Part shown: positions 32,494 to 33,717 of the stretch, piece after piece | Numbering within the stretch: the stretch's first letter is position 1 | Layout of the letters: each line of letters opens with the position of its first letter | Assembly (NCBI GenBank): GCA_902622705.1 | Contig: CACNQT010000013.1 | Span: 1 to 34,010, forward strand | Length of the DNA stretch: 34,010 bases | DNA from: an uncultured Prochlorococcus sp. | GTDB taxonomy: Bacteria > Cyanobacteriota > Cyanobacteriia > PCC-6307 > Cyanobiaceae | Direction: 5' to 3' | Notes under the pieces: model-generated | What the model was told of the DNA's origin: nothing | What the model saw: only the letters and a program-made list of their open reading frames with translations | Databases searched by the model: none | Position numbers and translations under genes: made by a program

Positions 32494-32805
32494 TTAGTCC
32501 TTTTGACCAAGAAATTCACCGTTACCAAGAGCTGGTTCAACTTCTCTATGAGGACGAGCAATAATGTGAGCTGCAACTAAACCGTCACCAACTCTTTCAC
32601 AAGCATCAGCACCAGCTCTTACAGCAGCGTTAACTGCTCCTGTTTCTCCTCTAACTAATACTGTGACATAACCGCCACCTACGAATTCACGACCAATAAG
32701 GCGAACTTCTGCAGCCTTTGTCATTGCGTCAGCTGCTTCGATTGCAGGTACAAGTCCGCGTGTCTCGATCATGCCGAGAGCGATACCCATTGTTTCTGTA
32801 GCCAT
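32494..32805 (-). CDS. csoS1: Carboxysome hexameric shell protein CsoS1
   Basis: A BMC-H protein of 103 residues that tiles the facets of the shell as hexamers with a central pore. The sequence TMGIALGMIETRGLVPAIEAADAMTKAAEV, the pore-loop region FVGGGYVTVLVRGETGAVNAAV and the end HIIARPHREVEPALG is typical of the major CsoS1 type. It is the first gene of the operon. No Shine-Dalgarno sequence precedes the ATG: the leader ends in GTAGACA directly at the start codon, one of two leader blocks repeated upstream. Confidence 0.97.
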   Translation of the reverse strand: MATETMGIALGMIETRGLVPAIEAADAMTKAAEVRLIGREFVGGGYVTVLVRGETGAVNAAVRAGADACERVGDGLVAAHIIARPHREVEPALGNGEFLGQKD

Positions 32806-32837
32806 TGTCTACTAATTACTAAATGTGGAATGTTCAA
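32806..32837. repeat. csoS1 leader blocks, copy 1 of a bipartite direct repeat
   Basis: On the plus strand TGTCTAC (32806-32812) and TGTGGAATGTTCAA (32824-32837) are 11 bases apart. The same two blocks, in the same order and orientation, recur at 33043-33068 with a 5-base spacer. Read on the minus strand this copy is the csoS1 leader just before the ATG. Confidence 0.85.
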
Positions 32838-32862
32838 TCCGAAGAATGCTTCATTAAGTACT

Positions 32863-32868
32863 TATAAG
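32863..32868 (-). promoter_or_regulatory. Candidate -10 box of the carboxysome operon
   Basis: TATAAG on the minus strand would start transcription near 32855 and give a csoS1 leader of about 50 bases. No good -35 box lies 17 bases upstream, as in many activator-dependent promoters. The call is inferred from spacing to the dyad at 32915-32929. Confidence 0.35.
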
Positions 32869-32914
32869 TCAAGCGTTTTCGACAAAATCTCCATTAATGT
32901 TTTTTCTATCATTC

Positions 32915-32929
32915 ATAAGTTAAACTTAT
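32915..32929. promoter_or_regulatory. Perfect dyad, candidate LysR-type (RbcR/CbbR-like) operator
   Basis: ATAAGTT-A-AACTTAT is a perfect 7-1-7 inverted repeat containing T-N11-A, the core of LysR-type sites. It also has the ATAAG-N5-CTTAT layout, close to the form reported for cyanobacterial and plastid RbcR sites. Its centre would be about 67 bases before the inferred csoS1 transcript start, where such activators usually bind. Confidence 0.5.
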
Positions 32930-32992
32930 CACCCTTGGTACTATTGATATGTCAATACTTATGCAAATTAGTTAGTGCATCAAAACATACTG

Positions 32993-33021
32993 TTGTGTTA
33001 AGAAAAAATTTACATTATGTT
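32993..33021 (+). promoter_or_regulatory. Candidate rightward promoter before the structured element
   Basis: TTGTGT (32993-32998) and TATGTT (33016-33021) are 17 bases apart. Initiation would fall near 33028, the first base of the foldable element. Each box matches the consensus in about four of six positions. Confidence 0.4.
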
Positions 33022-33027
33022 ATTTCC

Positions 33028-33086
33028 GTACGAGGCAGGCCCTGTCTACACAGGTGTGGAATGTTCAACCTTTCCTGTCTCCGTAT
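33028..33086 (+). ncRNA. Candidate structured RNA (rdgB leader or small RNA) complementary to the csoS1 leader
   Basis: TACGAGGCAGG (33029-33039) pairs with CCTGTCT-C-CGTA (33074-33085) in an 11-bp stem with one bulged C and one G-U pair. Inside it CCTGT-CTAC-ACAGG (33041-33054) forms a second hairpin. The stretch is clearly richer in G and C than its surroundings, as RNA genes are in AT-rich genomes. It contains both csoS1-leader blocks (33043-33049 and 33055-33068), so a plus-strand transcript could pair with the csoS1 mRNA leader. No clear terminator follows, so it may be the 5' leader of rdgB, which starts 47 bases downstream. No known RNA family was recognised. Confidence 0.45.
33043..33068. 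repeat. csoS1 leader blocks, copy 2 of a bipartite direct repeat
   Basis: TGTCTAC (33043-33049), a 5-base spacer and TGTGGAATGTTCAA (33055-33068) repeat copy 1 exactly in both blocks. The longer block is an imperfect dyad (TNGAA-N2-TTCNA), so a protein-binding site is an alternative to RNA pairing. Confidence 0.85.
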
Positions 33087-33132
33087 CTAGCTTTGAAGTA
33101 AGATAATATCCTCAATAAATTTATTTATTATT

Positions 33133-33717
33133 TTGAACCATCCAGTACTGACTATTGCGAGTGGCAACAAAAATAAAGTTTCTGAAATTTCGGCAATGCT
33201 GGATGTTTTGTCTTTAAGGGTTCAGAAGCAACCAGAATATTTAAATGTCGAAGAGACTGGAGACACATATTTTGAGAATGCGCTTTTAAAAGCAAAAGCA
33301 GCTGCTTTAGAGACAAAAACCTGGGCATTAGCTGACGATTCTGGACTTGAAGTAGATGTTTTAGATGGTCGACCAGGCATATATTCTGCTCGATATGCCA
33401 AAAACAACTCTGAAAAAATTAAAAAATTAATTAATGAACTTTCTGATAGTCCTTACAGGAGCGCGAGATTTATAAGTTGTATGGTTTTATGTGATCCCTC
33501 AGGAAACTTAGTGAAGGATTCAACTGGAATATGCTGGGGAGAAATTCTTAAGACTCCAAAATATCCAAATGGGGAGTTCGAATCTGTTTTTTGGGTAAAA
33601 GAAGCTAACTGTGTTTACGGTGAGCTATCACAATCACAACTAAGTAAGTTAGGAAGCAGGGGTAAAGCCGCCAGAATTATGTCACCTTACCTCAAAAAAG
33701 AAATTGGTTTAAATTAA
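33133..33717 (+). CDS. rdgB: RdgB/HAM1-family nucleoside triphosphate pyrophosphatase
   Basis: The 194-residue protein belongs to the family that removes ITP, dITP and XTP from the nucleotide pool. It starts at TTG, with LTIASGNKNKVSEI (nucleotide binding), TGDTYFENALLKAKAAA and ADDSGLEVDVLDGRPGIYSARYA with the metal-binding D68/D69. Two motifs differ from the standard. GFGYDP appears as NGEFES (146-151), and SHRGKA appears as LGSRGKA (173-179), so the usual base-recognition Asp and His are absent. The fold is certain; substrate range is not. It is divergent from the carboxysome operon and convergent with csoS1D (7-base gap). Confidence 0.9.
   Translation: MNHPVLTIASGNKNKVSEISAMLDVLSLRVQKQPEYLNVEETGDTYFENALLKAKAAALETKTWALADDSGLEVDVLDGRPGIYSARYAKNNSEKIKKLINELSDSPYRSARFISCMVLCDPSGNLVKDSTGICWGEILKTPKYPNGEFESVFWVKEANCVYGELSQSQLSKLGSRGKAARIMSPYLKKEIGLN

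Follow-up and report, generated by a model that had tools for sequence, protein, structure and literature searches.

A putative structured RNA beside csoS1 in Prochlorococcus and related cyanobacteria that may pair with the csoS1 mRNA leader

Described RNAs of picocyanobacteria and the csoS1-rdgB locus

Prochlorococcus and marine Synechococcus carry out a large share of ocean carbon fixation and possess few regulators. One small RNA of Prochlorococcus, Yfr28, is reportedly from high-light strains. Yfr28 is 72 nt long, its first 46 nt are complementary to the ftsZ leader and it has other predicted targets (PMC7368042). Yfr1, Yfr2 and Yfr10 are described as short intergenic small RNAs of Prochlorococcus (PMC2518516, PMC6778093), and csoS1 and csoS2 mRNAs were enriched in a pull-down with Yfr10 (PMC6778093). 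In Synechocystis, RblR is an antisense RNA for Rubisco (PMC5306279). The candidate described here, a predicted RNA encoded between csoS1 and rdgB, resembles Yfr1, Yfr2 and Yfr10 in that it is a short intergenic picocyanobacterial RNA which would act by base pairing. Unlike Yfr1 and Yfr10, it does not contain the motif ACUCCUCACAC (as given in the consulted text of PMC2518516) in the sequence analysed. It shares with RblR that RNA control is proposed for a Rubisco gene; in contrast to that antisense RNA, it does not overlap its target and would pair over about 16 nt. Like Yfr28, it is a short RNA with complementarity to an mRNA leader. However, Yfr28 overlaps the ftsZ leader, whereas the candidate RNA does not overlap csoS1 and was found in 28 of the 40 genera sampled.

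The nearest entry in the literature is a conserved structure that Axmann et al. (2005) predicted for MIT 9313 and WH 8102, upstream of the rbcLS cluster, as their cluster 87. In the parts of that article covered, cluster 87 has 336 columns, Z values of -4.24/-3.64 and a predicted structure, its comment speaks of a region containing a conserved promoter, and neither an RNA nor a target is named (PMC1242208). We infer that this region is the csoS1-rdgB gap. Within the open literature covered (supplementary tables and subscription papers being outside this scope), no RNA was described at the gap; the covered parts of PMC5069720, PMC5607370, PMC9692554, PMC3898218 and PMC13249358 belong to this scope. 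The names csoS1, HAM1 and rdgB do not occur in the searched parts of PMC2518516, PMC7368042 and PMC1242208, where some locus tags of the tables were unmatched. A 2026 review of cyanobacterial CO2-concentrating mechanisms deals with noncoding RNAs generally and cites the flv4 antisense RNA; "sRNA" and "small RNA" are absent from its main text as consulted (PMC13249358). At the RNA locus of the sequence analysed and of seven relatives, Rfam 15 gave no family at gathering score, and the best weak match was JA04 (18 bits against a gathering score of 81).

The window is the whole stretch of 34,010 nucleotides analysed, from an uncultured Prochlorococcus sp. The two genes that border the gap are as follows.

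32494..32805, minus strand: csoS1, alpha-carboxysome major shell protein (NCBIfam BMC_CsoS1, 9.1e-56)
33133..33717, plus strand: rdgB (RdgB/HAM1 family), 3′ of the RNA and in the same direction (TIGR00042, 7e-42; 142.9 bits against a cut-off of 145.35)

The first-pass annotation had reported that two blocks of the csoS1 leader recur in the same order about 230 bases away, with 5 and 11 bases between them. The coordinates agree with this. TGTGGAATGTTCAA is a direct repeat at 32824-32837 and 33055-33068, at a spacing of 231, and TGTCTAC is present at 32806 and 33043; therefore, 11 and 5 bases lie between the blocks. Two copies of the 10-base core TGGAATGTTC are present in the 34-kb window (0.11 expected), and none of 100 shuffles contained two. 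Outside the genus of the window, csoS1 and rdgB were divergent neighbours in all 26 loci compared (L076-L101), and an alignment of these gaps revealed TGGAATGTTCAACC or a close variant between complementary arms in most of them. An old duplication without function might also leave two near-identical blocks in the same order. This explanation is, however, extremely improbable because the RNA occurs in 28 of 40 genera with covariation and 51 of its 60 positions are invariant among 25 genus sequences.

Structure and promoters of the predicted RNA

The following features of the predicted RNA were assigned in the window.

33028..33087, plus strand: structured RNA with outer stem, inner hairpin and the loop AAUGUUCAA closed by GG/CC (model matches, covariation)
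33028..33039, plus strand: 5′ arm of the outer stem, with the predicted RNA start at about 33028 (fold, covariation; start from the -10 box)
33074..33086, plus strand: 3′ arm of the outer stem (fold, covariation)
33041..33054, plus strand: inner hairpin, whose 3′ arm lies within the antisense stretch (fold, stem covariation, RNA-mRNA covariation)
32993..33021, plus strand: predicted promoter of the RNA, TTGTGT, 17 bases, TATGTT (boxes conserved in relatives)

The window sequence folds into a stem with an inner hairpin as first described. As a single sequence, its folding energy is unexceptional (z -0.96; 36 of 200 shuffles were equally good). Therefore, the evidence for the structure is comparative. 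In an alignment of 44 rows, which is model-fitted and hence leans towards the structure, 90.1% of the stem cells were paired and 14 of the 17 pairs were doubly changed with pairing kept. The doubly changed cells numbered 49, as compared with 13.7 in shuffled alignments; none of 500 shuffles reached this value, and it was above all slid controls. In an unfitted set of 23 rows, 90.6% of cells were paired and six pairs were doubly changed. The compensatory changes in the stem that the first-pass annotation had proposed to look for were thus found. Among the remaining stem cells of the 44 rows, there were 39 G.U, 12 A.C, 60 other mismatches and 20 gaps. The excess of G.U over A.C favours a plus-strand RNA.

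It should be mentioned that RNAalifold on the raw alignment of 39 sequences (A1; A2 consists of 23 of these) gave six pairs and no double change. The structure used here was drawn from individual folds and replaces that result; it is therefore derived from the same sequences, and slid and shuffled controls were run. A further alignment, A4, consists of 44 matches from 45 given sources (L207 not among them); its input did not include L037, L095, L097, L102, L106 and others. Conserved, covarying secondary structure, one of the features by which a base-pairing small RNA is recognized, is present.

An 86-codon frame (32830-33090) covers this region, so the possibility of a small protein was considered. 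The frame is open in the window and in other genus members (L240, L241). However, a frame of at least 80 codons from the matching ATG was found in one of 27 sequences, namely the window itself, the other 26 being from outside the genus. We regard this explanation as practically negligible. Coding potential outside the genus was rejected, the 80-codon frame being open in none of the 26 outside sequences.

A TAnnnT box lies 5-10 bases before the stem in all 44 rows (5.7 in shuffled upstream sequences), and TTG is located 17 bases upstream of this box in 30 of them (0.1 in shuffled sequences). Because these boxes are conserved, transcription of the RNA is expected to begin close to the foot of the stem, and the RNA would thus have its own promoter. 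A rightward promoter at this place had been proposed from the window, and its boxes have counterparts in the relatives, although a consensus promoter scan of the window did not report it. On the opposite strand, the promoter of csoS1 was assigned.

32843..32848, minus strand: -10 box of csoS1, 7 bases before the predicted +1 at 32835 (121 of 126 loci)
32868..32872, minus strand: -35 element of csoS1, TTGAC, at one fixed spacing (120 of 121 loci)

The -10 box is exactly 7 bases before GAACATTCC in 121 of 126 loci with the intact motif, and TTGAC is found at one spacing in 120 of those 121. Therefore, the csoS1 mRNA should begin with GAACAUUCC, with +1 at 32835. The predicted leader is 26-34 nt long, and 30 nt in 80 of the 126 loci. 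Both this start and that of the RNA were predicted from sequence. Twelve bases of the 14-base block, which the first-pass annotation had taken to be complementary to the leader over its full length, lie in the predicted mRNA, but two are upstream of +1. The pairing in the window reaches about three bases further into the csoS1 leader than the repeat block (a run of 15). Axmann et al. (2005) cite a 2003 study for the csoS1 promoter (PMC1242208). A cis-antisense RNA was considered and rejected, since the predicted RNA start (33028) and the csoS1 +1 (32835) are divergent without overlap.

An inverted repeat, ATAAG-N5-CTTAT, is present at 32915-32929, and its centre is 87-88 bp upstream of the start predicted for csoS1. 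It is exact in 101 of 148 loci, 72 of them from the genus and 29 from the 76 others. The RbcR motif is quoted as ATTA(G/A)-N5-(C/T)TAAT in the part of PMC13249358 consulted. Because of this resemblance, the repeat may be a LysR-type site of the cso operon.

Complementarity to the csoS1 leader

The two partners of the predicted pairing are located as follows.

33052..33066, plus strand: antisense stretch complementary to nt 1-15 of the predicted csoS1 mRNA, with two G.U pairs (run of 15; family covariation)
32820..32835, minus strand: target, nt 1-16 of the predicted csoS1 mRNA (promoter boxes, covariation)

The antisense stretch reads AGGUGUGGAAUGUUC in the window and AAGGGRUGGAAUGUUC in many relatives. 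The RNA-RNA interaction prediction suggested by the first-pass annotation gave a duplex of -36.4 kcal/mol in the window, which none of 2000 shuffled leaders reached. Among 31 ORF starts (ORFs of at least 100 codons), csoS1 ranked first for pairing with the window RNA.

The pairing tests included only rows with GGAATGTTC in csoS1 and GG[AG]ATGTTC in the RNA, and nt 1-9 of csoS1 pair in all rows because the rows were selected for this motif. Beyond it, nt 10-15 of the leader pair in 25-30 of the 31 distinct pairings through several pair types, and nt 11-15 covary with the RNA (C-G, U-A, A-U and U-G types). For example, nt 12 is C-G in 23 pairings, A-U in four, U-A in one and C-A in three. Nucleotide 16 is paired in 18 of the 31 and nt 17 in five. 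Compensatory changes between the two copies, the second comparative check that had been suggested, are accordingly present at nt 11-15. Since the 16-bp duplex covaries, the pairing between the RNA and csoS1 is directly testable.

With one genome per genus (22 genera), cognate duplexes had a mean of -33.2 kcal/mol as compared with -30.7 kcal/mol for cross-genus duplexes (0 of 20000, with kinship ignored). When leaders were shuffled outside the 10-nt core, the cognate leader was better on average in 22 of 22 genera and at 0.05 or below in 18, again with kinship ignored. A distance of 1.6-1.9 kb separates the RNA from csoS1 in 11 genomes. For these distant genomes, and for the start-region tests described below, rows with GGACTGTTC in the RNA of distant genomes were also admitted; the summed duplex energy of the 11 was better than in 300 of 300 shuffles. 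Conserved complementarity to the predicted target mRNA near its 5′ end is thus present.

Alternatively, the two copies might be repeated DNA sites of one protein, which would occupy both the csoS1 start and a position about 230 bp upstream of it. Consistent with this idea, the copies have the same orientation, are strongly conserved and share a near-palindromic GAA-TG-TTC core, and 10 genomes in which no RNA was detected retain an intact csoS1 copy. However, the upstream copy is part of a fold that double changes and G.U pairs preserve, and the match is kept when the spacing changes from about 220 bp to 1.6-1.9 kb. Moreover, the copy differences at nt 11-15 are U-G in 16 cases and C-A in seven, a weak bias to the type tolerated by pairing. 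We consider the protein site very unlikely. Because the match is kept over 1.6-1.9 kb in 11 genomes, a simple duplication or local repeated site, the alternative named at the outset, is weakened.

It had also been proposed that the 7-base TGTCTAC block forms a second pairing site, so that the RNA would mask the csoS1 start region. These two claims were not supported across the family. Only some members of the genus have TGTCTAC in exact form, and its role as a conserved second site was not established: the longest stretch shared by the hairpin and the csoS1 start was 4.85, as compared with 4.63 when permuted (p 0.07 for sequences outside the genus; 0.014 after addition of one genus member). 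Pairing with the start region was no better than that with shuffled leaders: 8.93 bases were paired within -14 to +3 of csoS1, as compared with 8.38 (p 0.09). This pairing was above its own shuffled mean in 23 of 44 rows and touched the start codon in 16 of 44.

The motif GAACATTCCA was found in 82 copies in 12 genomes, as compared with 36 for the reversed pattern. By position, 22 of the 82 are the two copies at the locus and about 60 are elsewhere, which is still more than 36. Of about 60 off-locus sites, 40 were inspected; 34 are inside open frames of at least 90 codons and six are not (L229, L250, L251, L239, L262 and L263). L262 and L263 were rejected as extra copies of the RNA because the RNA structure is not formed. 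In L229, a 14-nt stretch on the other strand (1500-1513) is fully complementary to the RNA and is located upstream of a gene for an rpoD-type sigma factor, at a distance of about 290 nt. This non-coding site is kept in three genus genomes (L229, L250 and L251), and the sigma gene was identified in L229. The site may be a second target of the RNA or may have arisen by chance.

Distribution and possible mode of action

The RNA was present in 48 of the 79 sampled family genomes having csoS1 (79 of 81 sampled). Presence was scored from two pooled searches (E 0.01) and counted only at the csoS1/rdgB locus; G150 (a variant seen by eye) and G120 (a decayed copy) were scored as lacking the RNA. The csoS1-rdgB gap was matched in 82 of 101 genomes of the window's genus, and the genus gap alignment contains 72 sequences, 70 of them distinct. 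In a class-wide sample of 145 genomes with stricter filters, the RNA was found in 14 of 15 listed family members and in none of 130 others, 111 of which are not listed singly. Among the matches listed, a close RNA pattern occurred in records of Prochlorococcus, Synechococcaceae, Cyanobium and Vulcanococcus; one 25-base pattern had no exact match in viral contigs. In contig C17 of G101, csoS1, the RNA and rdgB occur twice in opposite orientation near both contig ends with identical scores, which is either an assembly artefact or an inverted duplication.

Of the 48 genomes with the RNA, 47 have an intact csoS1 motif, whereas the motif is changed in 21 of the 31 genomes lacking the RNA (Fisher 1e-10; with one genome per genus, median 3.5e-6 and worst 6e-4). 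An RNA match elsewhere in G114 (contig C37, E 9.4e-4) was not counted; counting it would give 48 of 49 and nine intact genomes without the RNA. As counted, 10 of the 31 genomes lacking the RNA keep the motif, so the motif may have another role. Five of these 10 share a genus with a bearer of the RNA, as compared with three of the 21 changed genomes, which would fit an order in which loss of the RNA comes first. Each trait shows at least 11 changes on the csoS1 tree. With just three supported independent pairs, the sign test for co-loss gave a median p of 0.5. Independent divergence of the two copies had been named in advance as evidence against pairing. The copies covary at nt 11-15, but they diverge independently in G164 and genus g20: in G164 and three g20 genomes the loop is decayed or changed and csoS1 has no matching change. 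A loop variant, TGGACTGTTCAACC, is present in G131, G150 and G170 (L252, L199 and L207; three genera), where csoS1 keeps TGGAATGTTC and the core run is interrupted; G131 and G170 are among the 11 distant genomes. In all seven distant loci tested (L176, L178-L181, L207 and L221), an Sbt_1 bicarbonate transporter gene lies between csoS1 and the RNA and rdgB, so that the RNA is divergent from Sbt_1 there. A P-II-like gene was seen in both of the two distant genomes tested for it.

The structure may alternatively be a cis-acting 5′ leader of rdgB (a structured UTR or processing element), the match to csoS1 being secondary or allowing the csoS1 mRNA to act on rdgB. In all 48 genomes with the RNA, rdgB follows it on the same strand (at a distance of 46-111 nt in 43 of them), also where csoS1 is distant, and a terminator scan of the window found none at the RNA's end. 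Therefore, the RNA may be the head of the rdgB mRNA. In the part of the MED4 study covered, terminator signals are given for few 3′ ends (11 among 337 3′ UTRs; >10 nt searched; PMC3898218). However, an intact RNA lies 180-215 nt from rdgB in four genomes and 682 nt from it in G142. Among 25 genus sequences, conservation within the gap is lowest over the 45 bases from the RNA to rdgB (0.77; the other six stretches, 0.88-0.97). Moreover, covariation with csoS1 would not be expected of a leader. We thus regard the rdgB leader as rather unlikely, and it is compatible with a csoS1-pairing RNA. Just 5′ of rdgB (33099-33107), TAAGATAAT or a near variant is found in most genus sequences shown; it may be a separate rdgB promoter 3′ of the RNA.

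Conserved structure, strand preference, promoter boxes, predicted csoS1 start and covarying complementarity were computed directly, and we infer that the RNA is made and regulates. The plus-strand structured RNA complementary to the csoS1 leader, as first proposed, is upheld by stem covariation, G.U excess, promoter boxes, covariation at nt 11-15 and the association with the csoS1 motif. Thus, the gap probably encodes a folded RNA of about 60 nt that would pair with the csoS1 leader and control the carboxysome/Rubisco message post-transcriptionally. In this mechanism, the RNA would be transcribed on the plus strand from its own promoter and would pair in trans with the first 15-16 nt of the leader of about 30 nt. 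A duplex over the first 16 nt would sit directly upstream of the ribosome site. We lean slightly towards an RNA that hinders ribosome loading or speeds decay of the csoS1 message. Protection of the csoS1 5′ end from RNase E-type decay is possible but less expected, and an action on the message in some other way seems unlikely.

It is quite doubtful, though conceivable, that alpha-carboxysome cyanobacteria possess a dedicated, ancient RNA which caps the 5′ end of the cso message and sets carboxysome/Rubisco output, and whose loop in some Prochlorococcus also meets the 14-nt site upstream of the principal sigma factor gene. If so, that site would link carbon-fixation capacity to global transcription. 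Carbon fixation would gain a post-transcriptional control if a conserved RNA acts on the first nucleotides of the carboxysome/Rubisco message.
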